Assembly: GCA_040757115.1 (NCBI GenBank)
Contig: JBFLYA010000096.1
Span: forward strand, 1 to 14,113
Origin: a bacterium
Lineage (GTDB): Bacteria > UBA9089 > CG2-30-40-21 > SBAY01
Direction of reading: 5' to 3'
Length of the DNA: 14,113 nt
In this document: positions 1,498 to 14,113 of the stretch, piece by piece
Position numbering within the stretch: position 1 is the stretch's first letter
Layout of the letters: the number at the start of each line of letters is the position of its first letter
The notes under the pieces: model-generated
The model's input: the letters and a program-made list of their open reading frames with translations, nothing else
Told to the model about the DNA's origin: nothing
Databases searched by the model: none
Translations under genes and position numbers: made by a program

Positions 1498-2860
1498 ACT
1501 TTTCACTTCCTTTGATTGGTAATTCAACCATAAAAGTAGTTCCTTTACCTTCTTCACTCATAACTCTCATAACTCCGCCGTGTCGGTTAACTATTCCTCT
1601 GCTAATATATAATCCTAACCCATAACTCTTTCTTTTCGTAGTAAACGATAAATCAAATATCTTACTCAAATTATCCTCTGAAATTCCAACTCCTGTATCA
1701 CTAAATTCGATACATATAAATTTTGCTTCAGGAAAATATTCAATTACTCTACTTAGAACTTTTAACTTTCCTCCCATTGGCATTGCCTGTATTGCATTAT
1801 TTATTATATTCATGAATACCTGTTTTAACTGATCTTTATCAGCAAGCACTAAAGATAATGACGATTTTAGGGTTTTAGTCAATTTTACATTTGAGGGAAC
1901 TCGATATTTAATTAATAATAAAACCTCTTTCAGTACTTTATGAACATCAACTTCAGTAATGTTAGACTTCTCTTGAGAAACTACCTCTAAGAGATTGTTT
2001 AATAATATCTTGGAATAGTTAACACTTCGTGTTATTACCCTTATTTCTTTAGCATTTGGATTATTCTGATCAATGTTAGATGCCAGATAATTTATTGCCT
2101 TATCAATAACTTCCAATTCGTTTGTTAAAGTGTGTGCAATTTTATCTGTTGATTTTCCTAATTTACTTTTGAGCACTCTATGAACATCAATTTCGGCAAA
2201 ATCTGATTTATCACGAAAGGACAAATCTGAGATATTGCTTAACAATTTCTTACAATGATTAGCCCTTCGCGCTATTACATCTATTTCTGTAGTATTTGGA
2301 TTACTCTTCTCAATATTAGATAGCGGATAATTCACTGTGTTATCAATAATTTCAAATTCATTCGTCAGATCGTGTATAATCCCAGCTATTACTTCTCCCA
2401 ATTTAGTCAATTTCGGTAATTTCTTTGAATCAACTTGCTTCTTTTTTCCAGTAGTCTTGGAATAAACAGGTTGTTTTTTAGAAAGGGTATTTTCTAAAAG
2501 AGAATTAACCGTATTTAATATTTGTCTTGGGAAAAAAGGCTTGAATATAACTGCTGTTGGTCTAAGTTCTTTTAACTCTTCCTGTTCTTCTCCTAATGCA
2601 GTAAGAAAGATAACCGGGATCTTTTGAGTCTGAGGATTTTTTTGTAATTCATGGTATACACCAAAACCATCTAATTTAGGCATCATAATATCAGTAATGA
2701 CTAAATCTGGTCTTTCTGCAAATGCCTTTTGTACTCCTTCTTCCCCATCAATAGCTGTGAGAACCTCTAAACCACCACTAGTTAGCCTAGTTAGCTTAGT
2801 TTTGATAACCCGTAGAATAACACTATCATCATCTATGACTAAAACTTTTTTCTTGGGAAT
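1487..2860 (-). CDS. Hybrid receiver-histidine kinase with duplicated DHp region; likely ATT start
   Basis: The protein has 457 residues if started at the ATT at 2860. Residues 4-120 are a receiver: acidic cluster 10-12, acceptor D57 in VITDIMMPK, T88 and K108. Residues 161-236 and 241-316 are two homologous DHp-like segments with candidate phospho-histidines H163 (IIHDLTNE) and H243 (IAHTLTNE). Residues 330-450 are a HATPase_c domain: N box NIINNAIQAMP (351-361), G1 DTGVGIS (388-394), G2 GLGLYIS (414-420). No membrane segment or sensor domain is visible, so it is a soluble kinase that probably receives its signal through the receiver. The first in-frame ATG (2686) would delete the first three strands of the receiver. 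No ATG, GTG or TTG lies between it and the upstream stop, but a good ribosome site fits the ATT. The gene overlaps the next one by 11 bp. Confidence 0.85.
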   Translation of the reverse strand: MPKKKVLVIDDDSVILRVIKTKLTRLTSGGLEVLTAIDGEEGVQKAFAERPDLVITDIMMPKLDGFGVYHELQKNPQTQKIPVIFLTALGEEQEELKELRPTAVIFKPFFPRQILNTVNSLLENTLSKKQPVYSKTTGKKKQVDSKKLPKLTKLGEVIAGIIHDLTNEFEIIDNTVNYPLSNIEKSNPNTTEIDVIARRANHCKKLLSNISDLSFRDKSDFAEIDVHRVLKSKLGKSTDKIAHTLTNELEVIDKAINYLASNIDQNNPNAKEIRVITRSVNYSKILLNNLLEVVSQEKSNITEVDVHKVLKEVLLLIKYRVPSNVKLTKTLKSSLSLVLADKDQLKQVFMNIINNAIQAMPMGGKLKVLSRVIEYFPEAKFICIEFSDTGVGISEDNLSKIFDLSFTTKRKSYGLGLYISRGIVNRHGGVMRVMSEEGKGTTFMVELPIKGSEKYGR

Positions 2861-2874
2861 CTTAAATCACCTCT
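2858..2874 (-). promoter_or_regulatory. Shine-Dalgarno plus ATT initiation codon of the hybrid kinase
   Basis: On the minus strand AGAGGTGA (2874-2867) is followed by six bases and then ATT (2860-2858), which opens the receiver frame IPKKKVLVIDDD. An in-frame TGA lies two codons upstream of the ATT, so there is no room for another start. ATT initiation is rare but known (infC). A point change or base-call error in an original ATG is the alternative. Confidence 0.6.
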
Positions 2875-3000
2875 TGTGTCAGATTCTTCTTATGTTCCTC
2901 AGGCTAGTCTATATCAACCTTTTCAAATCGCCCTTAGATTGCAATCTTTGAGGTAGATATTCTCTTCCCGGCCATTAAATTGATCGAGATTTCTGCTATC

Positions 3001-3207
3001 GGGATGCGGATGAGCGAAGTGCCCCGAAAGGGGCATAGGTTCGACAGGCTCACTACAAGTTTTGGCTTCAGCCCCGACCTGCAAGCGCGACCCACTTCGT
3101 GGGTGCCCCGCCGCTGCTGATAGCCAAAGTGACGCAGAGCAACTTCTCTTTTTCAAAAATTCCCCTTGAGTTACATAAAGCTTCCGCCTTTCGCTCATCC
3201 GCATCCC
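3001..3207. repeat. GC-rich repeat unit 1 bounded by 18-bp perfect inverted repeats
   Basis: GGGATGCGGATGAGCGAA (3001-3018) is repeated in perfect inversion at 3190-3207. Inside are a GCCCC-GAAA-GGGGC hairpin (3021-3034) and a CCCAC-TTC-GTGGG hairpin (3091-3103). The 3064-3205 segment is closely similar to 13389-13530. A 23-base segment containing the second hairpin occurs at 3088-3110, 3208-3230 and 13412-13434. The short ORFs crossing this region on both strands resemble no protein and are ignored. No gene is seen between 2875 and 3346. Confidence 0.75.
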
Positions 3208-3273
3208 CGACCCACTTCGTGGGTGCCCCGCAAAATGCGAATCCCAAAGGGGTTCGCGCGAAGCGACATTTTG

Positions 3274-3352
3274 GTTATTGTTTTGCGGATAAAAGAAGTT
3301 GCCAAAGGCAATTTGAGTGAAGCGAAGCGAAACCTTTTATCCGTTGTTATCT
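3274..3352 (-). other. attC-like site 1 (after HEPN gene), outer box degenerate
   Basis: This is an imperfect inverted repeat with arms GCGGATAAAAG / CTTTTATCCG around a loop containing GTTGCCAAAGGCAATTT. Arms and loop match the sites at 4197, 7082 and 13564. The gene-proximal box (minus strand AGATAAC) contains the HEPN stop codon. The distal box reads CAATAAC instead of GTTRRRY, so this site is probably worn or altered at the crossover point. It is the last site of the array on this side. Confidence 0.6.
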
Positions 3353-3805
3353 GCCGTTTGTGGGCATTTTGCTTTTTTGTCTTCGCTCAATCTCTTTAAT
3401 TTTTTGTTCCACAAATTCATAAATCTCTGTTGCTATTGCTACAGATTCATCTGCCATTTCAGGGGTAAAGTCATATATTGGTAGTTCAGGATACCGTGCT
3501 TCATGTTGATAAGGATGGAGAATCAAAGACTTAGACCGTAATCTAAGAAATTCCTTATCTCCCTGGCCACATAGATCAATCAATGTCCGCAAAGAATGAA
3601 GTTCAGGGGCTGATTTGCCCATCGCTTCAAGAAAGGCTTTTAGGCTTTTTTCTACACATTCACGAGCCTCAAAACATGGCTTATGGTAAAAGTATGTTCT
3701 ATCTTCCAAACCACTCCTTGCCCATTCAAGGTCACTCTTTGCATAAAACAATAATTGCTTGTAGTACTTATCAGGATAACCCGGCTTTATCTCTTTGTTT
3801 CTCAT
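3347..3805 (-). CDS. HEPN-domain protein, toxin partner of an MNT/HEPN pair
   Basis: The 152-residue all-helical protein is of the HEPN (PF05168) type. It shows the N-terminal helix YAKSDLEWA (21-29), CFEARECVEKSLKAFL (44-59), LHSLRTLIDLC (69-79) and EARYPE (102-107). R90 and H97 are spaced as in the RX4-6H ribonuclease motif, but I am not sure they are the catalytic pair. The start overlaps the end of the upstream nucleotidyltransferase gene by 35 bp, the usual linked arrangement of MNT/HEPN toxin-antitoxin modules. The stop codon lies inside the attC-like site at 3274-3352, so the pair forms one cassette. By family knowledge HEPN partners act as RNases that are silenced by the MNT protein. 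Which is toxin here is inference. Confidence 0.85.
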   Translation of the reverse strand: MRNKEIKPGYPDKYYKQLLFYAKSDLEWARSGLEDRTYFYHKPCFEARECVEKSLKAFLEAMGKSAPELHSLRTLIDLCGQGDKEFLRLRSKSLILHPYQHEARYPELPIYDFTPEMADESVAIATEIYEFVEQKIKEIERRQKSKMPTNGR

Positions 3806-4163
3806 ATAACACTTTCCCTTTATTTATAATCTCTTGTTTCAGAAAGGAATTACCACTTTTTATACCCTTTTCTATTTGTTTGGGAGTTCTAACTATTACA
3901 TCCAGAGCAAAAAACCTTCCAGAAAATAATTCATCAATCTTGCGTTCAGCTTCTCGTACATTTCTAATCCTTTGTTTAACAATATAGAGGTCTATATCGT
4001 GAGAATTTTGCATATTCCTGGCAGCTGAACCAAAAAGGATTATTTTCTCAGGATTAAAATATTTTACTATCTTATCCCGAATCTCCTCTATAAGTGAAGA
4101 AGTAATGGGTTCAAGAATTACCTTTTCTTTCCTTTTCATTGGTTCTGCTTCATATTTACCCAT
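3771..4163 (-). CDS. Minimal nucleotidyltransferase (MNT), antitoxin partner of the HEPN gene
   Basis: The pol-beta superfamily MNT has the signature IILFGSAARN followed by HDIDLYIV, that is GS-x9-DxD, with a third acidic residue in ALDVIV. All three metal ligands are kept, so activity is plausible. In characterised MntA/HepT pairs this protein adds AMP groups to a tyrosine of the HEPN toxin and neutralises it. I assign the same role by homology and gene order. An ATG at 4172 also exists, but GGAGAGG sits directly against it and is 9 bases from the ATG at 4163, so I prefer the latter. A third candidate start lies at 4139, just before the conserved domain. The gene begins about 30 bp from the end of the attC-like site at 4197-4284, as expected for the first gene of a cassette. 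Confidence 0.85.
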   Translation of the reverse strand: MGKYEAEPMKRKEKVILEPITSSLIEEIRDKIVKYFNPEKIILFGSAARNMQNSHDIDLYIVKQRIRNVREAERKIDELFSGRFFALDVIVRTPKQIEKGIKSGNSFLKQEIINKGKVLYEKQRDKAGLS

Positions 4164-4196
4164 GGTTTGCATCCTCTCCTTTTACCCACAATGAGC

Positions 4197-4284
4197 AGAT
4201 AACGGCTCTAGCATATACGACGTTGCCAAAGGCAATGTCCCGAAGGGCAAGGGCGAAACCCGCAACGTATATGCTGTGTTAGTC
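4197..4284 (-). other. attC-like site 2 (after TIR-like gene)
   Basis: The inverted arms are AGCATATACG / CGTATATGCT, with boxes GACTAAC (minus strand, 4284-4278) and CGTTATCT at the far end. The loop shares TTGCCAAAGGCAAT with site 1. The upstream gene's TAA stop (4281-4279) lies inside the proximal box. Arm sequence differs from the other sites while box spacing and loop are kept. That pattern fits a folding recombination site better than a simple dispersed repeat. Confidence 0.7.
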
Positions 4285-5079
4285 GAAGTTTGGCTCATCT
4301 TCTTTGATGATATCATAAATATATTTCTTTAAGGTTTCTTTGAGCTTCTCACAACCTTCAGAGTTGTCAGAATATATTATGTGTCTAAATCGTAGTAGAT
4401 CGAATGGTATCTCTTTGACATCTTGAGTAATCAGTATTACACGTTTCCCTAAAGTGTGTGCTATTCCAAGTTCATAAAACACATTTGGATTTTGTCCCGT
4501 GATATCTGCAATAATTATTTTGGCCTTAACTATACTTTCATAGATGTCGATCATTACGTCTTGTCCACATAAGTCATCAGCTCTTTGACAAATTAGAGGG
4601 GGTGTCAAATCGAGTCCTGTAACCGAAGGACGAATATGTTTCTTCCAAACTCTCTCAGACCAGTTTGTAGAAAATGGCATTAGTACGAATATAAGGTTAT
4701 TACATTCATCAATTCTTCTTATATGGAAAGGGCACTTTTTCTCTATGTAATCTCTTTCATGGTATTTAACCTGAGCCAGTTTGATTTCCGATGAAAGAAT
4801 AATCTCAAGTGCTCCGATTCTCTGTTGAAATACAGTTATCCTTTCACTTTTGTTTTTGGGAGTATTTCCTTTAAAATATTGGGCGTGATCCCAAATACAA
4901 TAGGGGGTACCATAAGTAATACAACTTCCAGCAGGATCTAGAGAGTGCACATAATTCCCAGTCATTGATTCCCATTTTGAGATTTCGTTTAAGTTAAAAG
5001 TGCCAGATTGCAGTAATTGATTTCCTCTTTCCAATTGCTTTTTAAGTTTCTCTACCAAATCTTGATTCAATTTAATCAT
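4279..5079 (-). CDS. TIR / nucleoside-deoxyribosyltransferase-like nucleotide-binding protein
   Basis: The protein has 266 residues. The N-terminal half (1-125) is unrecognised; it holds a helical start and a Cys/Trp-containing stretch (GTPYCIWDHAQYF, 57-69). The C-terminal half is a Rossmann-like domain of the TIR/NDT-related group: FVLMPF (131-136), CQRADDL (164-170), IIIADITGQNPNVFYELG (188-205), IAHTLGK (206-212), IPFDLLRFRHIIY (224-236). E203 in FYELG matches the position of the catalytic glutamate of TIR NADases and deoxyribosyltransferases. In other proteins such domains cleave NAD or nucleotides or bind signalling nucleotides, often in phage defence. That role is inference here. It stands alone before its own attC-like site. 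No good Shine-Dalgarno precedes the ATG. A perfect palindrome lies about 50 bp upstream. Confidence 0.7.
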   Translation of the reverse strand: MIKLNQDLVEKLKKQLERGNQLLQSGTFNLNEISKWESMTGNYVHSLDPAGSCITYGTPYCIWDHAQYFKGNTPKNKSERITVFQQRIGALEIILSSEIKLAQVKYHERDYIEKKCPFHIRRIDECNNLIFVLMPFSTNWSERVWKKHIRPSVTGLDLTPPLICQRADDLCGQDVMIDIYESIVKAKIIIADITGQNPNVFYELGIAHTLGKRVILITQDVKEIPFDLLRFRHIIYSDNSEGCEKLKETLKKYIYDIIKEDEPNFD

Positions 5080-5404
5080 CGCTTAATCTCGTATAATAGA
5101 AATTACCAAATTTCGCCTACCTTATTTATATCCGAACAGGTTCGGATATACCCCCAATTTTGACTCTGGCTGAAAAAGCCAAAACACTCCTTCTATTAAC
5201 TTTTGTCTCCCATCACTTCCCTTTCTTCAGGCTCAAGGTATCCAGTGGACTCTTTTATTAAACTGAACTAATAGGAATTTGCTTTTTGGACATTTTGGAT
5301 GTTAATTTCTCTTTTATTCATTATGGAGATATTTTACCAAAAATTTTATCTTGTCTCAATAAAAATTTGCTTTTTTAGATCTCAGGGATATTCTACCAAA
5401 AATT
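5080..5404. other. Gene-free spacer with palindrome and direct repeats
   Basis: No complete gene is seen here. It holds the palindrome at 5127-5150, a GGCT-GAAAA-AGCC hairpin near 5168 without a T-run, and the first of the two direct repeats. On the minus strand, 5267-5196 is a 23-codon open stretch without a start (… GYLEPEEREVMGDKS). It could be the tail of a lost gene but is too short to assign. Confidence 0.5.
5127..5150. promoter_or_regulatory. Perfect 11-bp palindrome, possible operator of the TIR-like gene
   Basis: TATATCCGAAC and GTTCGGATATA are exact reverse complements separated by AG. The palindrome lies 48-71 bp upstream of the start of the TIR-like gene, where an operator would sit. 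The GAAC-N2-GTTC spacing does not match the LexA box, which has N4. The regulator is unknown. Confidence 0.4.
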
Positions 5405-5411
5405 TTATCTT
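5328..5411. repeat. Pair of 25-bp direct repeats
   Basis: GATATT(T/C)TACCAAAAATTT plus ATCTT occurs at 5328-5352 and again at 5387-5411 with one mismatch. Each copy is preceded by AATTTGCTTTTT (about 5276 and 5365), so a unit of roughly 85 bp is partly duplicated. It lies just past the end of the pseudogene at 5405. Confidence 0.55.
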
Positions 5412-5993
5412 AGGGGTATTGCAACCGCCTTATATTTTTTAAATTTCCAGCATATGGCTGTTTTGTATGGTTTTTCTACTTGTCTTTTTCTTTTTATATC
5501 TTTCTTACCCCCTTCCTTCTTACTGACTACCTCTTTACCCCTCTTTACTTCACCCCTTTTTCTATAGGTATTCTTTGTGTCAAGGATTACCCCTCCGATA
5601 AGGAAGTATTGCTGTGTCCAGGTTCCGCTGTGTATTTCCCTAACCATCTCTTTATATAGAAGGTGTCTTTGATGGTGTATCAATGGGTTTTATTGGATAA
5701 TCTGCTAATGCCAAATTCTGAAGATAGCCCCTATCCTTAAGCCACCTTGCAATCGCAACAAACTTTGCTATTCTAATAAGCTCTTTGTAAATAGGCACCT
5801 CCTTTGCAAATTCTTCATAATTATTTTCAAAGAAAGAGGCAAATTCCTCTGGTGCTTGATATTTACTTTCACTTTCAACCCCCATTACAATCTTATCAAA
5901 CATAATGCTTTCTCCTTCCTCTATGAGGACAACCTCTTTTGGCTTAAACCAGATTCTGCTGAAATGCCCTATTTTTATATTCTCATCTTTCGG
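5405..5993 (-). pseudogene. 5'-truncated and frameshifted remnant of a larger protein of unknown function
   Basis: Two overlapping frames read as one protein. Frame A (5993-5652) gives … GHFSRIWFKPKEVVLIEE … FASFFENNYEEFAKEVPIYK … RIAKFVAIARWLKDRG … and ends DTPSKTPSI. Frame B (in the same frame from 5683 to 5405) continues with REIHSGTWTQQYFLIGGVIL and a Lys-rich tail. A one-base slip around 5655-5680 joins them. Frame A is open up to 5993 with no good start and begins abruptly at an ACCTAAC heptamer, so the front of the gene is missing. The order of motifs (a WFKPKE strand, a helical VAIARWLK stretch, then a TWTQ..L.GGV.L strand pair) looks to me like the C-terminus of large surface or secreted proteins. 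I cannot name the family and give that only as an impression. Confidence 0.5.
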
Positions 5994-5999
5994 TTAGGT
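5993..5999 (-). other. Isolated attC-type heptamer ACCTAAC after the cupin gene
   Basis: On the minus strand ACCTAAC (fits RYYYAAC) begins 10 bases after the cupin stop codon, exactly where the proximal box of an attC would lie. The matching inverted arm is absent and pseudogene sequence follows at once. I read it as a possible half of a destroyed attC. Chance is quite possible for seven bases. Confidence 0.3.
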
Positions 6000-6009
6000 G
6001 AAGTCGCTA

Positions 6010-6498
6010 TCATTTTTTCACTGTTTCATATAGACGCTGTGTACCACTGTCATATTTTATTTCTATTAGTTCATTGCTTAAGCACGTGTGAAAAGAAATA
6101 ACAACCATTTCTCGTCCTTTCGGGTAAAATTCATGAGTTACACCCTTATCTATCACATACCAGCAATCTTCATTTTGCTGGTCGAATAATCTCATCTCCT
6201 CGCAACGGCCGGCAATTTTGACCTCTCCCTTCCCTTCGACTATTACCGTGTGTTGAGTACTATTTGGATGATAATGAGCAATAGAAGGAACATTCTTTTT
6301 GTTAACGAATATCCAAATAGATTTGATGTTCTGTGGTAGTCTCTCACGAAAAGACTCTATTCTTATGGCCCTCCCTATGAATGGTTCATTAGACTTCCGA
6401 AGCTGTAATTTGAGATTTTCAATAGTTTCTTTGATTGATGCGTCTTCTAATAATATTTTAACCACAACACTTAGATCCTTCAAATACTCCTTTTCCAT
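6010..6498 (-). CDS. Cupin-fold protein
   Basis: The 162-residue protein has an N-terminal helical segment (1-40) and then a single cupin barrel. Motif 1 is AHYHPNSTQHTVIVEGKG (74-91), with candidate metal ligands H75, H77 and H83 or E88. Motif 2 is GVTHEFYPKG (119-128), with H122. The spacing suits a small mononuclear metal-binding cupin, but substrate and reaction cannot be told: such proteins range from isomerases and dioxygenases to sugar or cation binders. A clear AGGAG lies about 7 bases before the ATG. It follows the GNAT gene by 51 bp in the same direction and probably shares its transcript. Confidence 0.75.
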   Translation of the reverse strand: MEKEYLKDLSVVVKILLEDASIKETIENLKLQLRKSNEPFIGRAIRIESFRERLPQNIKSIWIFVNKKNVPSIAHYHPNSTQHTVIVEGKGEVKIAGRCEEMRLFDQQNEDCWYVIDKGVTHEFYPKGREMVVISFHTCLSNELIEIKYDSGTQRLYETVKK

Positions 6499-6549
6499 AA
6501 AGTTTCTCCTAAGAATACGCCTCTTTCAACATAAACATTTGCCAAATCT

Positions 6550-7002
6550 CTAATCTATAAAATATTTTACAAAGCCAGTTTTAACTCCTTTTTCAAATCC
6601 AGCATTACCATAAAATCGTAATGTATTTTCATCTTTTCTACTGGTCATAAGCATAACCTTATAACAATTCTTTTCTTTGGCAATTTCAATTGCTCTTTTT
6701 AGTATGGCTGTTCCATATCCTTTTTTTCTATAATTCTTATGAGTTACTACATTTTCAATTAATGCATAAGGACATGCATTCCTTGTTAAATTTCTTATTA
6801 TGATTAAATTACATGAGGATATAATTTTTCCATTTTCTTCAATCACTAAACAAAAATGATTAGGGTCTTCAAATATTTCTTTCCATAGTTTTTTCAATGT
6901 CTCATCAATTTCAATCTTGGGATCATTTACATGCAAATGTTTATAAAGTTCTAATAATTGTTCAATCTCATTAAATTTTATCATTCTCACTTTTTCAATC
7001 AT
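6550..7002 (-). CDS. GNAT-family N-acetyltransferase
   Basis: The 150 residues cover one full GNAT domain. The acetyl-CoA loop is RKKGYGTA (92-99), preceded by the ENVVTH strand (83-88) and followed by helix ILKRAIEIA. Motif B is TLRFYGNAGFEKGVKTGF (127-144), with the usual Tyr (Y131) that can act as general acid. The substrate cannot be read from sequence; such genes are common integron passengers (amino-acid, peptide or antibiotic acetylation). The start could also be the ATG at 6984 (M7), since neither has a strong ribosome site. It is the first gene after the attC-like site at 7082-7167, with about 80 bp of AT-rich leader. Confidence 0.85.
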   Translation of the reverse strand: MIEKVRMIKFNEIEQLLELYKHLHVNDPKIEIDETLKKLWKEIFEDPNHFCLVIEENGKIISSCNLIIIRNLTRNACPYALIENVVTHKNYRKKGYGTAILKRAIEIAKEKNCYKVMLMTSRKDENTLRFYGNAGFEKGVKTGFVKYFID

Positions 7003-7081
7003 ATTTTAAGACCTCAAATTTAGTTAAAGCGATGGGCAAGACAGTAAACGTATATTTAATCAAAATTGGACAGGGCATTTC

Positions 7082-7167
7082 ACCTAACGTTCTGCGGATA
7101 AAAGAAGTTGCCCAAGGCAATTTGGGCGAAGGTGCGAAGCACCGTAGCCTTTTATCCGCTGTTAGGC
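7082..7167 (-). other. attC site 3 with full consensus boxes
   Basis: This is the best site of the window. The boxes GCCTAAC (minus strand 7167-7161) and GTTAGGT (7088-7082) both fit the RYYYAAC / GTTRRRY rule. The arms GCGGATAAAAG / CTTTTATCCGC pair perfectly. One arm carries four extra bases next to the box, as at sites 1 and 2. Length 86 bp is within the attC range. The loop again has GTTGCC.AAGGCAATTT. Confidence 0.8.
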
Positions 7168-7182
7168 GATAGTGCAATACCA

Positions 7183-7318
7183 TTAGAGATACCTCCTTAC
7201 TTTTTTCATATAATCCTTATATTCTTTGCCATACTGTTCTATTAAAAACTCTCTTTCATCTCTTTCCACATCGTAATAAGTATATCATAAGGCAAGGTAA
7301 AAGCTATCAATTTTTTTC
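7183..7318 (-). pseudogene. 3' remnant of an isoprenylcysteine/phospholipid methyltransferase-type gene
   Basis: Downstream of the ATPase stop, the minus strand reads KKIDSFYLAL, a TGA (7287-7285), then 33 codons including VERDEREFLIEQYGKEYKDY and KKVRRYL before a TAA at 7183. The second part matches the C-terminal signature of the ICMT/PEMT membrane methyltransferase family. The same signature is seen at residues 134-152 of the fusion protein encoded at 8800-9996 (KEEKYLERKFGQDYLHYKK). No start or upstream domain remains, and one in-frame stop interrupts it. It ends 15 bp before attC site 3, so it was probably the original passenger of that cassette, cut by arrival of the ATPase gene. Confidence 0.6.
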
Positions 7319-8638
7319 TCACCACCCTTTTTCGGATAACAGCCATTGCCATAGTGGTAAAAATCTAATTTTTTTACCCTCTATCTTTTCTTCAAATTCA
7401 TCATCTTCAGTAATAACCAGGCCTTCTTTAAGACCAAATTCCTCCATTGCCTTAATGAGTGCCTTGATTTCTCTCTGCTTAGTCTTCTCATCGTAGACAT
7501 TGGAGCAAACCTGAATAAGTTGCTTTGTCTTTAGTTTTTCTTTCAAAACAAAATCTACTTCTCTGTGAAATTGGTCTTTCCAGTAAAAGATTTCTAACTC
7601 TGGTGTTTCTCTTATTTTTTCTTTTAATTTTAAGTAAGTTATATTCTCTAATAATCTGCCTGAATTTTCGCTCGTCCTGAAACCTATCATATTTGCTAAC
7701 CCTGTATCTATGCAGTAGACTTTTTTGGGACTTTTATCCTGTTCCTTTACCTTAAAAGAAAACCTCTTCAAAAAAAATAAAATATAGGCATCTTCAAAAT
7801 AAGTAGAGAATTTTTCTATTGTATCAGCAGAGAGATTTAAATATTTTTCAATAGAGTTAAAGGTTATCAAATTTGATATGTTGGTGAGGTAATATTTGGC
7901 TAAACTTTTTATGGCTTCTTTTTTTCTTATATTGAATCTCTTTATCAGGTCTTTATTTAACACATCCTCATAATACCTTAGTAATATATCCTTTTTTTGT
8001 TGGTGTAAAACAACCTCCGGAAATGAGCCAAATTCAATATATTTCCTTAACAAAGCTTTGATTTCGTTCTGTTTGTTTATCATCTCAAGTTTATCTTTTA
8101 ATTGCAGATTGTTAAAAAGCAAATGTTCTCTAAAGGAAAGTGGATATACAGTCATATCAAGGTGCATTCCGGTCAATAAGCTGGAAAGTTCACGACTTAA
8201 TAATTTTGCGTTTGAACCGGAAATAACAATTTTTGCCTTTTGTAATTCTCGTGTGGTTCTAACCCATTTTTCCCATCCAGTAACCTCCTGAACCTCATCA
8301 AGAAAGATATAGGGCTTCCCTTTTGGACTCAAAAACTCTAAATATGTTTCATAAATCCTTTGCAGGACTTCTACATCCAATTGAGTAAATCTGGGGTCTT
8401 CAAAATTTATGATGAGAATTTCATTCTTATTGACCCCACTACTTACTAATCTTTTAGCCACCTGCCTCATAATGAATGATTTGCCACTTCTTCTTGCACC
8501 GGTTATGACCGTAATAAGCCCAGTATTTAAAAATTCTATTAACTTATTGACATAAGAATCTCTGTTAATGCCGGTTTCTATATCCTTTTCCCAGAAGTTC
8601 CAATCAGAAAGGATTCGGACAATCTCGTTTTTCTTCAT
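7319..8638 (-). CDS. AAA_14 / DUF4143 family ATP-binding protein
   Basis: The 439-residue protein has a P-loop ATPase of the AAA_14 type followed by a DUF4143 C-terminal half. Walker A is GARRSGKS (about 47-54), Walker B YIFLDEVQ (110-117), sensor VISGSNAKLL, then the LTGMHLDMTVYPLSFREHL segment typical of the family. The C-terminal part includes EIFYWKDQFHREVDFVLKE, a motif resembling restriction-endonuclease-fold active sites (D, then VDFV.K). These proteins are widespread, often next to toxin or mobile genes, and their function is not settled. I chose the ATG at 8638 because AAAGGTG sits 6 bases before it; a GTG at 8647 is also in frame. It has its own strong promoter. Transcription would run on through the methyltransferase remnant to attC site 3. 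Confidence 0.85.
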   Translation of the reverse strand: MKKNEIVRILSDWNFWEKDIETGINRDSYVNKLIEFLNTGLITVITGARRSGKSFIMRQVAKRLVSSGVNKNEILIINFEDPRFTQLDVEVLQRIYETYLEFLSPKGKPYIFLDEVQEVTGWEKWVRTTRELQKAKIVISGSNAKLLSRELSSLLTGMHLDMTVYPLSFREHLLFNNLQLKDKLEMINKQNEIKALLRKYIEFGSFPEVVLHQQKKDILLRYYEDVLNKDLIKRFNIRKKEAIKSLAKYYLTNISNLITFNSIEKYLNLSADTIEKFSTYFEDAYILFFLKRFSFKVKEQDKSPKKVYCIDTGLANMIGFRTSENSGRLLENITYLKLKEKIRETPELEIFYWKDQFHREVDFVLKEKLKTKQLIQVCSNVYDEKTKQREIKALIKAMEEFGLKEGLVITEDDEFEEKIEGKKIRFLPLWQWLLSEKGW

Positions 8639-8662
8639 TATTTTCACCTTTATTAGTCAAAA

Positions 8663-8703
8663 TTTACAAATTTTACCTAATAAGTATACAAAAATTTGGT
8701 AAA
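8663..8703. promoter_or_regulatory. Imperfect inverted repeat spanning the -10 box, possible operator
   Basis: TTTACAAATTTT (8663-8674) and AAAATTTGGTAAA (8691-8703) are inverted copies with one extra base, placed on both sides of the TATACT box. A repressor bound here would block the promoter. In such AT-rich DNA the pairing could be chance. Confidence 0.35.
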
Positions 8704-8711
8704 GATGTCAA
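8683..8711 (-). promoter_or_regulatory. Strong sigma-70 promoter of the DUF4143 ATPase gene
   Basis: On the minus strand TTGACA (8711-8706), a 17-base spacer and TATACT (8688-8683) give a near-consensus promoter. It lies about 45 bp before the start codon at 8638. Confidence 0.8.
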
Positions 8712-8799
8712 CTAAAACTTTTCCGATTAGCAACCAATGAGCCAGGGCAAGGTTGCAAAGCAATCGCAAAGTTCTTAAACCCCGCCTATCAAAAAAATA

Positions 8800-9996
8800 T
8801 TATTTCAGCCATTGTTGCATAGCATTTTTATAGCTTTGTGAATATCCCGTATGAGCTGTACACAGTATAGAAATATTTTCAAGTTCTGCTAATTTCTTAA
8901 TAGATTCCTTCTGTGTTTCAGTATCTATATTATGAAAAGGACTGAAAATCTCAACTTTTCCGTCTTTTAATGTTAGTGTATCTCCACTACAAAGAATCTT
9001 ATCGTTGATTAAGTAAGCCATATGTCCAGGAGTATGTCCTGGTGTAGCAATCGCCTCGACTTTAATTTTCCCAACATTAACTACATCTTTATCTTTAAGA
9101 AGATTATATTTTTTGTATATCTTTACAGGATTGTGTGCGAAAAACAATCTGGCCGTAGTTCCATTAATCATTTGTTCTTCTTCTTTGCCTATATATAATT
9201 TCGCACCTTTGAATAAATCAAACTTGCCAAAAAAATCGACCCCGCCAGCATGATCTGGATCAGCATGGGTTAGAAACAAATGAGTAATTGAATCAGGATC
9301 AATATTTATCTTTCTAAACTCATTTCTAAGATCATCATATTTATATCCTGCATCAATACAAATGGTATTTTCTCTATCTGAATAGATAAATAGATTAGCA
9401 TCTCTATCTTTGATAACATATAGACCCTCAGTTAGTTTTCCTGTTTCTACAGGATACCACGTCTTACTTGGTAATGATGCAATCCAGACAAACAACTCTG
9501 CGATTGCAAATTCTATTCTAGGAAAAAGGCAAGGGACTTCCTTTTTATAGTGCAAATAATCCTGGCCAAATTTTCTCTCCAAATATTTTTCCTCTTTAAC
9601 TATGAGAATTCTAAATACAAGGTACATAAAGAGAGGAATTGAAATCCCTAATAAAGAACCAAAAATTAGAACTATTCCTGGAACAATAAAGACTATCCAC
9701 GCTGCATATATTGGGTGTCGGAAGAAAGAGTATATTCCACTTTTATATAATTTTCCTTCATAAAAATATTTATCAATTGTAAACGCAGGTATCAAAAAGA
9801 TAGGAACTCCCAAAATGAGAAGGATAATGCCTAATATAACATTTACAGATCCAGATATTACCTCAAATGTAAGTGAAGGGTAATAAACAAAATGCAAAAT
9901 AAAAATTATAATTCCATAAATAACCGATATTAGAGCGAATTTGGGTCCAACTCCCCATTTTGTCATTTCCTTGTTCATAGATGAATAACCTTTCAT
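8800..9996 (-). CDS. Fusion of membrane methyltransferase-like domain and metallo-beta-lactamase-fold hydrolase
   Basis: The protein has 398 residues. Residues 15-165 form a PEMT/ICMT-type membrane domain with about four hydrophobic segments, the SGIYSFFRHPIYAAW motif (86-100) and KEEKYLERKFGQDYLHYKK (134-152). Residues 180-398 are a metallo-beta-lactamase fold: THADPDHAGG (243-252), TPGHTPGH (318-325), SGDT (337-340) and AHTG (381-384). The first metal motif reads HxDxDH rather than HxHxDH, a known variant of the superfamily; the other ligands H321, D339 and H382 are present. Joining an SAM-dependent membrane methyltransferase to a cytoplasmic hydrolase suggests sequential steps on one substrate, but that is inference. 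An ATG at 9978 has AAAGG about 10 bases upstream and may be the true start, as nothing suitable precedes 9996. It lies 25 bp after the soluble methyltransferase gene. Confidence 0.8.
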   Translation of the reverse strand: MKGYSSMNKEMTKWGVGPKFALISVIYGIIIFILHFVYYPSLTFEVISGSVNVILGIILLILGVPIFLIPAFTIDKYFYEGKLYKSGIYSFFRHPIYAAWIVFIVPGIVLIFGSLLGISIPLFMYLVFRILIVKEEKYLERKFGQDYLHYKKEVPCLFPRIEFAIAELFVWIASLPSKTWYPVETGKLTEGLYVIKDRDANLFIYSDRENTICIDAGYKYDDLRNEFRKINIDPDSITHLFLTHADPDHAGGVDFFGKFDLFKGAKLYIGKEEEQMINGTTARLFFAHNPVKIYKKYNLLKDKDVVNVGKIKVEAIATPGHTPGHMAYLINDKILCSGDTLTLKDGKVEIFSPFHNIDTETQKESIKKLAELENISILCTAHTGYSQSYKNAMQQWLK

Positions 9997-10021
9997 ATTT
10001 TTTAGGTTGAATTCATACTTT

Positions 10022-10681
10022 TTATTTCTTTAGCCATATTTCCAAATCAATAGGATTTTCTTTGACTTGGCATGTCTTAAATTTAGTTTTAGACACAAGT
10101 TCTATAATTTCTTCTTTATTATAGGAATCCTTTATCGAGTGCTTAAGCCCCCATCTCATAATGAATGAATCAATCTTTTCTAAGAGTTTACTTATCTCTT
10201 CTCTAGAAATATCTTTTCTTAAGTCACATATCAGAGCTCTTCCTTTGCTATTAAGTATTCTGCATGCTTCATTAAATACCTTAATAGGTTTTTTCCAATG
10301 ATGAAGAGAACCACTACTAACTACAAAATCAAAAGTGTTATCCTCAAATGGCATATTTGATGCATCTCCCAGTTCAAATTTAAGTTCTGCACCAGCATCT
10401 TTTGCGTTCCTTTTTGCGATCTCTATCATTGTTTCACTAATATCCAATCCTATTATTTGGAAAGCACCAAGTTTTGAAAGCTCTATTGATATATAGCCTG
10501 GACCGGGTCCTATCTCAAGGACTTTTCCGTTTTTAAGCTGCTCAGTAACGCTGCATGCAATTCTTTTATATTCATCCATTAATACTTTCTTTGCAAATTT
10601 ATCATACTTTTCTGCAAACCAGCCTTCGATTCCACCTTTTGAGGTAAACTGCTTTATTGTTCTGAATAAGTTTCTTGTCAT
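10022..10681 (-). CDS. Class I SAM-dependent methyltransferase
   Basis: The protein has 219 residues. A Rossmann methyltransferase core (Methyltransf_11/25 type) shows motif I KVLEIGPGPGY (53-63), acidic D80 at the end of strand 2 (IIGLDISETMI), motif with D106 (GDASNMPFEDNTFDFV) and post-motif SSGSLHHW (122-129). The first 45 residues (… GGIEGWFAEKYDKFAKKV) are the usual helical cap. The substrate is unknown; the SLHHW form is common among small-molecule and lipid/quinone methyltransferases. It sits 25 bp before the membrane-methyltransferase/hydrolase fusion and reads into it, so the two probably act together. About 45 bp separate its start from the far end of the attC site at 10726-10789, so it is the first gene of that cassette segment. 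Confidence 0.88.
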   Translation of the reverse strand: MTRNLFRTIKQFTSKGGIEGWFAEKYDKFAKKVLMDEYKRIACSVTEQLKNGKVLEIGPGPGYISIELSKLGAFQIIGLDISETMIEIAKRNAKDAGAELKFELGDASNMPFEDNTFDFVVSSGSLHHWKKPIKVFNEACRILNSKGRALICDLRKDISREEISKLLEKIDSFIMRWGLKHSIKDSYNKEEIIELVSKTKFKTCQVKENPIDLEIWLKK

Positions 10682-10725
10682 CTTATCGTCTCTATACCTA
10701 TTATTAATGTGGGGTTCGGAATTTC

Positions 10726-10789
10726 ATCTAACGACTGAGCTCACCTGTCCGCCTTAGTTAGGCGGGTCAGGTGCAGCGATTGGTTAGAC
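10726..10789 (-). other. attC site 4 (after MBL gene), different type
   Basis: The boxes GTCTAAC (minus strand 10789-10783) and GTTAGAT (10732-10726) both fit consensus. The arms are CTGCACCTG / CAGGTGAGCTCAG, with an extra base on one arm as in classical attC, and the apical hairpin is CCGCCT/AGGCGG. Length is 64 bp. The hydrolase stop codon TAA (10786-10784) lies in the proximal box. Arm sequence and short length set it apart from sites 1, 2, 3 and 6; it resembles attC sites of proteobacterial cassettes as I remember them. Confidence 0.8.
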
Positions 10790-11461
10790 AAATAGCTCCC
10801 TTATTAATTTTGCACCCTTCTCCAAGATTGCTTGACCATGACCAACACAAATAATGTCTATCTCAATATCTCTTAATTTCTTCACCGATTCAGAGAGCTC
10901 ATGGTCATCAATATTATAGAACCCTTGACAAACCGCTAATTTGCCTTCATTGATTAGACTATCCCCTGAGAATAAGACTTTTCTATCGGGTTGATATAAT
11001 GCCATGCTTCCAGGAGTATGTCCAGGAGTATGAATGACTTGCAACCCACCAAATATCTCTAATATATCACCATCGTCGACAGTTTTATCAACCCGAATGC
11101 CTTTTATCGCGAATAAAGTATTGAGTATCCCCCAGCCAACTCTTTTTCCAAAAGATGAATATTGAAGTTTTGCTGTTTGTTCAATATACGGCTTTTCGGC
11201 TTCATGAGCAATAAGGGTAGCATGTGAGATGTCTTGTATTTTTTTGACATTTGCTGTGTGATCACTATGACAATGGGTTAAAATGATATAGTTGATATCT
11301 TCAATTTGAAAACCTTGCTGTTTCATCTGTGAGGCAATTTTTTTATAATCTCCCATCATTCCTGTATCAATAAGGGCAACTCCATTGTTCTCTACTATCA
11401 GATAACATTGCCCACTTTTTAATTCGTCAAATTGATAAACATCTTGTGTAATTTTATGCAT
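10784..11461 (-). CDS. Metallo-beta-lactamase-fold hydrolase
   Basis: The 225-residue protein is a complete MBL fold with canonical ligands: LTHCHSDHTA (61-70; H63, H65, D67, H68), TPGHTPGS (145-152; H148), FSGDSL (164-169; D167) and VGHG (206-209; H208). It has no signal peptide, so it is cytoplasmic. It resembles glyoxalase II-like and lactonase-like hydrolases more than true beta-lactamases; the substrate is unknown. AAAGGAG lies 8 bases before the ATG. This is the cleanest single-gene cassette here: the start is about 40 bp from attC site 5 and the stop codon lies inside the box of attC site 4. I see no promoter of its own in the short leader, so it would depend on read-through. It shares the fold, but not the HxDxDH variant, with the fusion protein two genes on. 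Confidence 0.88.
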   Translation of the reverse strand: MHKITQDVYQFDELKSGQCYLIVENNGVALIDTGMMGDYKKIASQMKQQGFQIEDINYIILTHCHSDHTANVKKIQDISHATLIAHEAEKPYIEQTAKLQYSSFGKRVGWGILNTLFAIKGIRVDKTVDDGDILEIFGGLQVIHTPGHTPGSMALYQPDRKVLFSGDSLINEGKLAVCQGFYNIDDHELSESVKKLRDIEIDIICVGHGQAILEKGAKLIRELFV

Positions 11462-11500
11462 AAAGTTTTTCTCCTTTTATTCTATCATTTTGCCGTTGTT

Positions 11501-11632
11501 GTTTAACGATAAAGTTCAGGTGCGGCAGGGAGAATTACCACAAAAGTTTGATAGCAAGATAAAACTTTGAGAGAACACAAAACTCTGACCACGGCACAAT
11601 CCCCCGCCCTCAACTGCAACGCAGGGTTAGAC
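11501..11632 (-). other. attC site 5 (after Dam-like gene), long type
   Basis: The boxes are GTCTAAC (minus strand 11632-11626) and GTTAAAC (11507-11501). The inner arm GTTGCAG near the first box pairs with GTTCAG as read from the other side, leaving the single extra G that defines attC orientation. At 132 bp it is long, with an unpaired AT-rich middle. About 105 bp of sequence in which I see no gene separates it from the end of the Dam-like gene. Confidence 0.7.
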
Positions 11633-11739
11633 AAAAGCTTTGATTCGCTGTCTTTTCCTTTTCCTCTGCCTCACCGAATTATTGTGCATTCCACATTCAC
11701 GGTTTGACCCTCATATCTCCCCACCGACTTGACCTAAAT

Positions 11740-12570
11740 TTAAATTATCCCTTGCACATCCATTTTTGTTATCTCATAATTTGCAACCAACAACTCTTTC
11801 CCTTTTTGTGCTGTCTGTTGTTTATAATTGTTCATCCCGTATTGCAATTCCCACTCAACCTGATAAAAGTCTTTAAACAATGCTCGGATATATTCGTTAT
11901 TATCATAGGTTATTAACCATTTATGCTTTAATTGTTTGAGATTTTCAAAAAATACTTCGTGATTAAAATCTACATGAAGATACCCATTTTTTCCATATAA
12001 TCTTGACTGTGTAGTTGAATAATATGGTGGATCCAAAAAAATAAATACACCTTTACCTTCTTTACCTAATAGGTCAGTATAGTCTTTTGGGCTGAATTCT
12101 ATGTGTTTGATAACCTCATAAGCATGTTTTAATCGTTGGATAGAAGATATTGTAAAGCGTTTTTGAAATGCCTGTTCTGAATATCCTCCACTATCCACAA
12201 CACCGGAAAATGTAATTCTGTTTAGCACAAAAAAATCAACTGCTCGCTGAAAATCTGATAACGGCTGTTTTCGTTTGGCAACAAGTTCCTGAAATAATTC
12301 TTTTCCATTAACATATCCTTGCCTCACCCTAAGAATTTCTCTGATTAACTCATCCTTGTTCGATTGTAATTCCTTCCAGAAACAATACAAATCATAGTTT
12401 ATATCACTTGCATAATACTTGGCATACGGATTTTTCTGAACACAGTAAAACGAAAATGACCCTCCTCCAAAAAATGGTTCTCGGAATTCCTCATATTGAG
12501 GAATAAATCTGTAAAGATAGCCTACTGCCCTGGATTTTCCACCTGGATAACGTAAAGGACTTTTAATCAT
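11740..12570 (-). CDS. Dam/D12-class DNA adenine-N6 methyltransferase
   Basis: From the ATG at 12570 the protein has 276 residues, the normal size for Dam-like enzymes. It has motif X (LRYPGGKSRAV, 6-16), motif I for SAM (EPFFGGGSFSFYC, 31-43), SDINYDL (56-62) and the catalytic motif IV DPPYYS (180-185), in alpha-class order. It methylates adenine N6 in DNA. The target sequence cannot be deduced, and no matching restriction gene is visible, so it is an orphan or part of the unusual group with the neighbouring RadC-like gene. A GTG at 12585 is in frame, but GGTGAGG 9 bases upstream favours the ATG. The start overlaps the upstream frame by 8 bp (ATGATTAA), suggesting translational coupling. Confidence 0.88.
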   Translation of the reverse strand: MIKSPLRYPGGKSRAVGYLYRFIPQYEEFREPFFGGGSFSFYCVQKNPYAKYYASDINYDLYCFWKELQSNKDELIREILRVRQGYVNGKELFQELVAKRKQPLSDFQRAVDFFVLNRITFSGVVDSGGYSEQAFQKRFTISSIQRLKHAYEVIKHIEFSPKDYTDLLGKEGKGVFIFLDPPYYSTTQSRLYGKNGYLHVDFNHEVFFENLKQLKHKWLITYDNNEYIRALFKDFYQVEWELQYGMNNYKQQTAQKGKELLVANYEITKMDVQGII

Positions 12571-12751
12571 CTTTGTTTCCCTCACCGTATTCGATTATGA
12601 CCTCAAAGTTGTTTGCTCTTGCTTCTTTGAAGAGAGCGTTAATAAATTCTTCTTTGTTTTTCCTGAAGCAATTTTGCTGGAAGAATGTTGTAATTTCATT
12701 TTCATATTTTATGGACTCTAATCTTTTCTTGTGTCCATTTGAATCGTTTTC
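12563..12751 (-). pseudogene. Frameshifted continuation of the RadC-like gene
   Basis: This frame is open from an in-frame TAG at 12754 to a TAA at 12563. It gives a protein-like stretch (KRLESIKYENEITTFF … KEEFINALFKEARANN … EVIIEYGEGNKDD) but has no ATG, GTG or TTG, so it cannot start by itself. It is one base out of step with the RadC-like frame, which ends at 12702 inside it. A one-base slip in or near the A-rich stretch around 12722-12730 would join the two into a protein of about 145-150 residues. It overlaps the Dam-like start by 8 bp. It may be a mutation, a base-call error or programmed frameshifting. Confidence 0.5.
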
Positions 12752-13004
12752 CTAATTCTAATGCTGAAATAATTTGTAACGCTTTCGTGGTTCCAATTCC
12801 AGGGAATTCGCTTAATTGTTCTATAGAAATTGAATTATTTAGATTTGTGCGAATATATTCAACTAGTTCTTTGCTTAAATCAAAGACATTTTTTTCCTTG
12901 GAACCATGCCCCAAAATAATAGCAATCAAATCTTCAGTAGTTATTTGAGCAGGATTTTTAATCTCAAGCAATTTTTCCCTTGGTCTTTTAGATTCATTAT
13001 TCAT
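12702..13004 (-). CDS. Stand-alone RadC N-terminal (UPF0758) helix-hairpin-helix domain protein
   Basis: The 100 residues match only the N-terminal part of RadC: RPREKLLE (8-15), ITTEDLIAIILGHGSKEKNV (21-40), then the DNA-binding hairpin LSEFPGIGTTKALQI and SALELGKRF. The MPN/JAB-like C-terminal domain of RadC, normally over 100 residues more, is absent. The frame ends at a TGA while an adjacent frame continues with plausible protein, so the true product may be longer. I infer non-specific DNA binding. Its place directly before a Dam-like methylase, with overlaps on both sides, suggests a shared DNA-related task. It is not a full RadC. The ATG overlaps the end of a 28-codon ORF. Confidence 0.7.
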   Translation of the reverse strand: MNNESKRPREKLLEIKNPAQITTEDLIAIILGHGSKEKNVFDLSKELVEYIRTNLNNSISIEQLSEFPGIGTTKALQIISALELGKRFKWTQEKIRVHKI

Positions 13005-13083
13005 CCCTTAATTCCTCAATAACCTTCATTTTTATTCGGACAACGACCATTTTTATTTTTTCCTCGGTTTTTTCCTTATCCAT
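12997..13083 (-). CDS. Possible 28-residue small ORF upstream of the RadC-like gene
   Basis: ATG at 13083 to TAA at 12997 encodes a charged helical peptide (MDKEKTEEKIKMVV … KVIEELRDE). Its end overlaps the RadC-like start by 8 bp (ATGAATAA), the same arrangement as at the Dam-like start. The frame stays open further upstream into repeat unit 2, so it may instead be the tail of a gene cut by that repeat. The ribosome site is weak. Confidence 0.3.
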   Translation of the reverse strand: MDKEKTEEKIKMVVVRIKMKVIEELRDE

Positions 13084-13111
13084 TTTCTTTCTGCTTGCAA
13101 TTGCAACTAGC

Positions 13112-13532
13112 GGGATGTGGATGAGCGAAGTGCCCCTTATGGTTTTTGCAAAATTAACTTCCACTTTTCTGGAATACCATAAAATAAATTAAAAATCAAA
13201 CATCAAAATGTAAAATTACAAATCAAAAATCAAAATATTCTCCAGCTACTTTGTTAATTTACAAGTATTTTTGCATTTTGCATTGTAATTTTGATATTTG
13301 CATTTTGATATTTACATTAAAGTTCTTCTTGCTATCGCTCTCCCCAAAAGAGGAACCTATTTATGAAAAAGCAATTAGGGGCATTTGGGTTTCAGCCCCG
13401 ACCCGCAAGCGCGACCCACTTCGTGGGTGCCCCGCCGCCGCTGATAGCCGAAGTAACGCAGAGCCACTTCCCTTTTTCAAAAAATCCCCTTTGAGTTACA
13501 TAAAGCTTCCGCCTTTCGTTCATCCGCATCCC
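13112..13532. repeat. GC-rich repeat unit 2 bounded by 18-bp inverted repeats
   Basis: GGGATGTGGATGAGCGAA (13112-13129) matches the inverse of 13515-13532 at 16 of 18 positions. These ends are the same as those of unit 1 (3001-3207). The right part (13389-13530) is closely similar to 3064-3205; the middle holds an extra AT-rich hairpin segment. No gene is seen between 13084 and 13660. Confidence 0.7.
13189..13320. repeat. AT-rich imperfect hairpin element inside repeat unit 2
   Basis: The left arm 13189-13235 (… ATCAAACATCAAAATGTAAA …) is an imperfect inverse of 13269-13320 (… TTGCATTTTGATATTTACAT …), about 45-50 bp per arm around a short centre. Unit 1 lacks it, so it looks like a separate insertion of a palindromic (MITE-like) repeat. 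Confidence 0.5.
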
Positions 13533-13569
13533 GATAACCAAAATGGAGCGAAGCGACATTTTGGTTATC
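13533..13569. repeat. Perfect 13-bp stem hairpin abutting attC-like site 6
   Basis: GATAACCAAAATG and CATTTTGGTTATC are exact inverse copies around an 11-base loop (GAGCGAAGCGA). The right arm ends at the outer box of attC-like site 6. At site 1 the same CATTTTGGTTAT is present (3267-3278) with a diverged partner arm. Confidence 0.7.
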
Positions 13570-13643
13570 GTTCTGATGAAAAAGAAGTTTTGCGAAGCAA
13601 AATTTGGACGAAGTGAAACGAAGTCTTTTACATCGTGTTATAC
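13564..13643 (-). other. attC-like site 6 (after PIN toxin gene), outer box degenerate
   Basis: The inverted arms are CGATGTAAAAG and CTTTTTCATC, and the loop has TTCGCAAAACTTC as in site 1. The proximal box on the minus strand is GTATAAC; the distal one reads CGATAAC in place of GTTRRRY. It lies 18 bp after the PIN-domain stop codon. It is the same family as sites 1-3. Confidence 0.6.
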
Positions 13644-13660: not shown

Positions 13661-14038
13661 TTACCATATAATCTTTACCCCAATCTCATTTAGAGATTTA
13701 TCCCGACTTATTAGAGGAAGATCTAAATGCATCGAGGTAGCAACTATTAATCTATCCCAAGGATCTGCAACTATCTCTCTTGGGATCATTCTACTTTTCC
13801 TAATTATTGGTAAACATATTGGTTCTATCTGATAATTTCTTGAAGAAGATATCATCATAAGAAGGTCGTCAAATTTAACGGTAATCTTTTTCTTTTCAAT
13901 AAGATAAAGCAACTCAAAGAAGAAAATACATGGAATGACAATATTTTCTTCACTCAAAATTCTTCTTGCCTCTTGAGAAAGTTTAGGATTATCCGTCATA
14001 TGCCATATTAAAGTGTGGGTATCAGTAACATATTTCAT
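13661..14038 (-). CDS. PIN-domain ribonuclease, VapC-type toxin
   Basis: From the ATG at 14038 the protein has 125 residues, typical VapC size. The acidic quartet of the PIN fold is visible: D6 in MKYVTDTHTLIWH, E42 in FFFELLYL, D95 in DPWDRLIVATS and D113 in ISRDKSL. By family it is a metal-dependent RNase held inactive by its antitoxin. Its ATG overlaps the stop of the upstream frame (TAATG), the standard antitoxin-toxin coupling. GGGGAG lies about 7 bases before this start; an ATG at 14053 is in frame but lies inside the antitoxin gene. The pair precedes an attC-like site, and toxin-antitoxin cassettes are frequent in large integrons, where they help keep the array. Confidence 0.9.
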   Translation of the reverse strand: MKYVTDTHTLIWHMTDNPKLSQEARRILSEENIVIPCIFFFELLYLIEKKKITVKFDDLLMMISSSRNYQIEPICLPIIRKSRMIPREIVADPWDRLIVATSMHLDLPLISRDKSLNEIGVKIIW

Positions 14039-14113
14039 TACCATTCTCCCCATTTCTCTTCAAGTTTTTTTAGTAATTCATGACGTGTTTCTTTAATATC
14101 TTTCTCTGTAATA
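14038..14113 (-). CDS. C-terminal end of the cognate antitoxin (partial, start outside window)
   Basis: The last 24 codons before a TAA at 14040-14038 read ITEKDIKETRHELLKKLEEK followed by WGEW. It is a charged helix with a Trp-containing tail, as expected for the toxin-wrapping end of a small antitoxin. Its stop overlaps the toxin start. The DNA-binding N-terminus lies beyond the window, so the antitoxin class cannot be decided. Confidence 0.6.
   Translation of the reverse strand, partial: ITEKDIKETRHELLKKLEEKWGEW

Follow-up and report, generated by a model that had tools for sequence, protein, structure and literature searches.

Which integrase assembled the gene cassettes of the window, by which we mean the whole 14,113 nucleotide (nt) stretch of DNA analysed here (G000:C96:1-14113)? 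The window belongs to a fragmented bacterial host genome, 4.32 Mb in 462 contigs. An earlier note had described it as a cassette array with six attC-like sites and placed it at the distal end of one chromosomal integron, with the integrase beyond the right edge. We confirm all six sites, which fall into two structural kinds: D and E are classical attC sites, and the others (A, B, C and F) are of a kind that we call type I. We consider it probable that integron cassettes of two systems are mixed in the window: one system is served by an integron integrase of the IntI type (sites D and E), and the other by a second integrase in which the IntI patch is absent (the type I sites).

Six attC sites of two kinds

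Two models were used, R2 for type I attC and R3 for classical attC; window sites were among the sequences used to train them, B and C for R2, D and E for R3. For this reason we ran a leave-window-out nhmmer test with profiles from other contigs only. At E<=0.01 its matches in the window were these six sites and no others, and every one was on the minus strand. Each lies at or directly beyond the 3' end of a minus strand gene, and the minus strand carries every recognisable gene in the window, as the earlier note had read it.

The type I sites are A (3273-3352; R2 52 bits, leave-window-out E 5.6e-11), B (4197-4284; 61.6 bits, E 0.0089), C (7082-7167; 74.5 bits, E 1.9e-12) and F (13563-13643; 52.6 bits, E 4.5e-13). 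The classical sites are D (10726-10789, 64 nt; R3 54.9 bits, E 2.7e-4, found in two pieces, the second at 0.024) and E (11501-11632, 132 nt; 140 bits, E 2.1e-35), the latter of the same subtype as sites on contigs C39, C30 and C118. The ends of RYYYAAC/GTTRRRY type proposed by the earlier note are seen in site C, where R'' and R' are intact. Sites A and F have lost the R' half (GTT...), and a nested element begins exactly in its place. A naive search for the attC end pattern gave one match, below its control, and a strict R''/R' hairpin finder caught C as the sole window site. The strict finder missed the others because the R' half is contributed by the following cassette and has been removed by the element in A and F.

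Type I attC sites share the layout R''(RYYYAAC)-1 nt-stem ... stem-5 nt-GTTRRRY. In their fold 89.6% of the cells are paired, with 34 double changes against 12.5 in shuffles, and when the partner strand of the stem is slid by 1-3 columns, pairing falls from 90% to 33-44%. This structure was read by hand; RNAalifold at default settings gave just 6 pairs. Classical attC sites fold into R''/L''/L'/R' with 24 pairs, 10 of them with double changes, and the extrahelical base is an unpaired G in L''.

The IntI integron of the host

Integron integrases are recognised by the IntI patch (PMC9668308). Contig C39 of the host encodes an intact IntI of 460 amino acids (aa), divergent from an array of classical attC sites. 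It scores 369 bits against a cut-off of 265 (TIGR02249), aligns with the Vibrio cholerae IntI (PDB 2A3V) at 2e-70, patch included, and has 100 aa between KGxKDR and HxLRH. Both classical window sites, D and E, are of subtypes found in the C39 array, and site E plus its flank closely resembles C39. Together with C39 they are full members of the IntI integrons.

R3 gave at least 132 matches in the host genome and R2 gave 23, so the cassette collection is of superintegron size. Contigs with several R3 matches are strand-coherent; on the sole exception, C93, two classical arrays face each other (199-9456, plus strand; 11336-14276, minus strand). Close to the IntI genes of Scalindua, Brocadiaceae and other bacteria R3 likewise has matches, and 17 of these 18 lie on the opposite strand from intI. 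A cassette array, as claimed in the earlier note, is thus supported by covariation in the attC fold, strand coherence and an intI in the genome. Both checks that the note had named, an attC model search and a search for intI, were run and gave six sites above threshold and the intI on C39. None of the refuting observations it had listed (no attC matches above threshold, hairpins scattered away from genes in both orientations, no intI) was made.

Decayed intI copies, about 40-55% identical to the C39 IntI, are found on host contigs C30, C63, C114, C116, C118 and C324. Those on C30, C116, C118 and C63 adjoin arrays in the canonical layout, and on C118 and C63 a second array abuts the intI 3' end, as if integrons had been joined in tandem. 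The IntI of the host (L014:9514-10896) and those of many Desulfobacterota, anammox and Nitrospirae genomes (L070-L147) carry an N-terminal extension of about 130 residues before the SAM-like domain.

A second integrase at type I arrays

Of 193 genomes, 35 contain type I sites, and these 35 come from many families. Their arrays often begin directly past one kind of tyrosine recombinase, on the same strand and mostly decayed. Copies at type I arrays were found in genomes G105 (two), G186, G019, G011, G160, G179, G072 and G279, and on host contig C154. A same-strand type I site lies 0.5-3.4 kb downstream of 10 of the 14 integrase copies; if each copy has a chance of roughly 1%, as at the densest background, a rough binomial P is ~4e-17, although copies in related genomes are not fully independent and the counts join fragments from several searches. 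The cassettes of these arrays are co-oriented and end in attC-like sites.

Intact integrases were found in G105 (contig C55, 394 aa), G279 (372 aa), G346 (432 aa) and G062 (370 aa), and these keep the catalytic residues. In G279, a single-contig genome, the integrase is followed by DUF262 and HicA-like genes and then by a type I attC. For several intact copies in other genomes the contig breaks off shortly past the integrase, as would be expected if repetitive arrays followed.

The integrase differs from IntI in several ways. The gap from KGxKDR to HxLRH is 59 residues, against 100 in every IntI measured, so that the patch is lacking. Its match to the IntI hidden Markov model is split; the G105 integrase reaches 225.6 bits, below the TIGR02249 cut-off of 265, and its best NCBIfam match above cut-off is NF040815 (XerA-like; 233.7 against 220). 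In a tree the close copies form a clade of their own (support 97/95), separate from IntI (100/100) and Xer. In eight of nine members, some 60 residues at the N-terminus resemble the HARP family (Pfam PF07443), with scores below the Pfam cut-off. The AlphaFold model is only fair (predicted local distance difference test 78, predicted template modelling score 0.48), and its best PDB matches are IntI and XerA. We rejected the idea that the C154 integrase is a stray Xer gene, as the housekeeping XerC and XerD sit on C50 and C157.

Several related loci were seen. A HARP-like N-terminal integrase fragment adjoins type I attC sites on host contig C258 (2406-2681; L054). Diverged HARP-like integrases in G344 (L307, 10124-11311) and G071 (L308, 9486-10625) are followed by attI-like ends, GTTATGTG and GTTGTGCG; the attC type of these two integrases may differ. 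Beside an array start on G000:C55 (L047, 4625-8208), E1/ThiF-like, ubiquitin-like, E2-like and JAB-like genes were read by eye, possibly a bacterial ubiquitin-like conjugation operon. Large viral contigs (IMG/VR, L316-L395; e.g. L365 1429-6710 and L372 3199-6673) encode a patch-less integrase (266-271 aa on the two contigs where its length was taken) together with type I-like attC sites. All 34 matches to such sites are on the strand opposite the integrase, 33 of them upstream of it, with small open reading frames interleaved; in L365 these frames run opposite to the attC direction. These are apparently phage integron-like arrays of divergent layout.

The attI site and a decayed platform in the window

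At 11 loci an attI-like site lies directly past the integrase stop codon. It consists of GATATCCGAAGTACTTCGGATA, about 20 nt, TATATCCGAACCTGTTCGGATAT and AAACAA|GTTRRRY, and is clearest in host contigs C154 and C55, in G001:C62, and in G279 and G346. In G105 and G179 the palindrome is kept despite changed letters. Among the attI copies of C154, C55, G001:C62 and the window, identity is 95-100% in the 40 nt to the left of the crossover G|TT and 27-36% in the 100 nt to its right, where the first cassettes are unrelated. High identity on the left with low identity on the right marks a single attI at which different cassettes were inserted site-specifically. In the viral contigs the exact attI pattern had no matches.

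The platform in the middle of the window is best read as a decayed one. A remnant of attI, GGGGGTATATCCGAACCTGTTCGGATATAAATAAG|GTAGGCG (5114-5160, minus strand), retains the second palindrome and the crossover, the first palindrome being deleted, and is 95-97% identical over 40 nt to the attI of C154, C55 and G001:C62. Beside it, tblastn with the C154 integrase found the last 13 residues of an integrase, KSPLDTLSLKKGK and the stop codon (5216-5254, minus strand), of which 12 of 13 (92%) are as in C154. The sequence of the region about 5114-5262 suggests that it is what is left of a platform of the patch-less integrase, tail and attI remnant. The earlier note had seen no integrase in view; this holds insofar as there is no working gene in the window and needs amending for the remnant. 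Leftward of the attI remnant lie a 266-aa gene with attC B, a HEPN/MNT pair with attC A, and then histidine kinase genes; rightward lie cassettes of both kinds (C, D, E and F).

We infer that the patch-less integrase carries out the recombination at type I sites. In brief, D and E would be ordinary attC sites of an IntI integron whose intact IntI is on C39. The second system would have its attI just past the integrase stop codon and cassettes that end in type I attC, and cassettes would enter or leave at G|TT of attI or attC. By analogy with known integrons, the route probably goes via a folded single-stranded attC. The platform of the window would then have been reduced by decay to the tail of the integrase and one half of attI, with two cassettes (the 266-aa gene with attC B, and HEPN/MNT with attC A) past it, up to the histidine kinase genes.

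Weighing of the alternatives

Several observations count against two systems. The integrase tail in the window is just 13 residues long and its match is weak when taken alone (E 0.013); we find it convincing because it adjoins the attI remnant in the layout of C154 and C55. Four of the 14 integrase copies have no type I site downstream, some of them being cut by contig ends, and most copies are broken, including that of the host. The HARP matches are below threshold (best E 0.0015; best score 18.5 bits against a gathering score of 25), and we therefore name the domain HARP-like only. Near more diverged HARP-like integrases (37-44% identical), R2 gave no convincing site. Finally, the C39 IntI array contains one type I site and the window contains two classical sites, so IntI may use type I sites too.

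This last point leads to the alternative that fares best, namely that there is one ordinary IntI integron, that the C39 IntI uses all six sites with the window as the distal part of its array, and that the patch-less integrase is unrelated or a passenger. The intact IntI on C39, the classical subtype common to C39 and the window, and the type I site within the C39 array all fit. Against it, a search of 83 IntI loci (885 kb) of other bacteria gave no type I sites, type I sites track the patch-less integrase across families, and the attI of this integrase stands at the start of type I arrays, the window included. We regard this explanation as unlikely. The same results go against the distal end of one integron with an integrase beyond the right edge, as proposed in the earlier note; four of the six sites represent the kind absent from the 83 loci, and a decayed platform of another integrase lies mid-window. 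A link of the window to C39, which is a different contig, would lie beyond the end of the window contig.

A clearly less probable alternative is that type I sites are old cassettes of clusters of attC sites lacking an integrase (CALINs), moved by various integrases, and that the patch-less gene tends to be captured beside attI. Most integrase copies are indeed pseudogenes and both cassette kinds are mixed within one array, but integrase, attI and cassettes keep the same order and strand across distant genomes, the attI palindromes change together, and the integrase gene is directly upstream of attI and not bounded by attC as a cassette would be. That the hairpins are terminators or repetitive extragenic palindrome (REP)-like repeats, as palindromes at gene 3' ends might be, is refuted for practical purposes by the leave-out search and by junctions that fall exactly at G|TT with differing neighbours on either side, and is also at odds with the R''/R' boxes, the covariation and the strand coherence of multi-site classical contigs, of which only C93 is mixed.

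A nested element at the attC crossover

The nested element is non-coding and consists of a hairpin, ATAACCAAAATG...CATTTTGGTTAT, followed by GGGATGCGGATGAGCGAA inverted repeats. Two copies are in the window, both on the minus strand. The first (3000-3279) starts at the crossover of attC A, and the second (13111-13569), enlarged by an AT-rich insertion, adjoins attC F. Eight host contigs carry the element, in 20 alignment pieces that we read as 15 elements. All 15 are directly past a type I attC and in one orientation, and most are followed by the TTRRRY of the next cassette; the element therefore sits at the crossover, exactly G|TT. By hand count it is found at 15 of 29 type I sites, against 0 of the 132 classical sites listed (P 1.6e-13). 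Five copies in the sister species G001 have the same place.

The element starts with ATAACC instead of TTRRRY and has no RYYYAAC before the stem, and is thus not an orthodox gene-less cassette. Pairs of loci (C338, the window, G001:C62) share the element and the upstream cassette without the downstream one, or the reverse, which indicates that cassettes were exchanged on both its sides.

Genes of the window

All genes below are on the minus strand and, unless stated otherwise, were assigned by Pfam. Past the last attC lie two non-cassette genes, encoding a response regulator/AAA protein (1-1557, cut by the edge) and a histidine kinase (1487-2686). R2 and R3 gave no matches in 1-2686. Synteny of the histidine kinase flank is absent in the sister species, and that comparison gives no evidence on the left boundary.

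A toxin-antitoxin cassette (3347-4172) encodes HEPN (PF05168; 3347-3805) and its partner, the nucleotidyltransferase MNT (PF18765; 3771-4172). The gene for the 266-aa protein (4279-5079) has no Pfam matches and is the first cassette past the attI remnant. On the other side of the platform are a cupin cassette gene (6010-6498), whose C154 homologue is the first cassette past attI there, and a GNAT cassette gene (6550-7002). Directly past the cupin gene, at the attC position of the C154 homologue, is CACCTAAC (5993-6000, minus strand), probably a truncated R''.

Further on are genes for an AAA_14/DUF4143 ATPase (7319-8647), an ICMT/MBL-fold protein (8800-9996) and a methyltransferase (10022-10681); a search for attC between these genes (7319-10681) found none. 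An MBL-fold hydrolase cassette (10784-11461) is followed by a cassette (11740-13004) that a Dam-type methylase (11740-12585) shares with an N-terminal RadC fragment (12702-13004), and by a PIN-domain toxin cassette (13661-14053). The partner gene of the PIN toxin runs off the window edge, so that of the two toxin-antitoxin pairs reported earlier only HEPN/MNT is complete. An Rfam search of the window gave no matches.

Comparison with known systems

On balance we lean towards the view that integrons of a second class exist, which have a HARP-like integrase without the patch, a palindromic attI and an attC type of their own, are spread over many bacterial families and are perhaps kin to the divergent integrase/attC-like arrays of large viral contigs. 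Their integrase would be missed by IntI searches, their arrays would be filed as CALINs, and they would carry a non-coding parasite, the nested element, which inserts precisely at the crossover of attC. Searches of the open-access literature brought up no account of a patch-less or HARP integron integrase, which does not prove novelty.

With IntI integrons (TIGR02249; VchIntIA, PDB 2A3V) the second system shares a tyrosine integrase, attI, attC with R''/L''/L'/R' and the G|TTRRRY crossover, as well as co-oriented cassettes rich in toxin-antitoxin, DNA methylase and GNAT genes. It differs in that its integrase lacks the patch stretch of about 41 residues, carries a HARP-like N-terminus and stays under the TIGR02249 cut-off, in that its attI is made of paired palindromes, and in the asymmetric 1/5 spacer of its attC. 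In Treponema-type integrons intI points towards attI, and these are described as intI integrons (PMC3607928); the integrase of the second system is patch-less and outside the IntI clade.

CALINs are attC clusters without an integrase (IntegronFinder 2.0, PMC9024848). As cut, the window would get this label, yet it holds an integrase tail and an attI remnant, which an IntI-based search does not target. Recombinases of the XerA/NF040815 type (PDB 5HXY, 4A8E) have the same domain without a patch, whereas the patch-less integrase is linked to attI and cassette arrays and not to a chromosomal dif-like site, and has the extra HARP-like domain. The nested element resembles the IS1111-attC insertion sequences (cited in PMC11187229) and the gene-less cassettes of Vibrio (PMC11014356) in targeting attC in one orientation and in being geneless; it differs in its size of about 210-450 bp, the lack of a transposase and its position exactly between G and TT.

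If the patch-less integron is a working one, cassette capture by attC would have evolved or survived in another line of recombinases, part of the integrase-less CALIN arrays would gain an owner, and a new recombinase with its attI/attC pair would be available for study. The origin of integrons from Xer-like recombinases would also become testable, because the patch-less integrase is architecturally between XerA-type enzymes and IntI.

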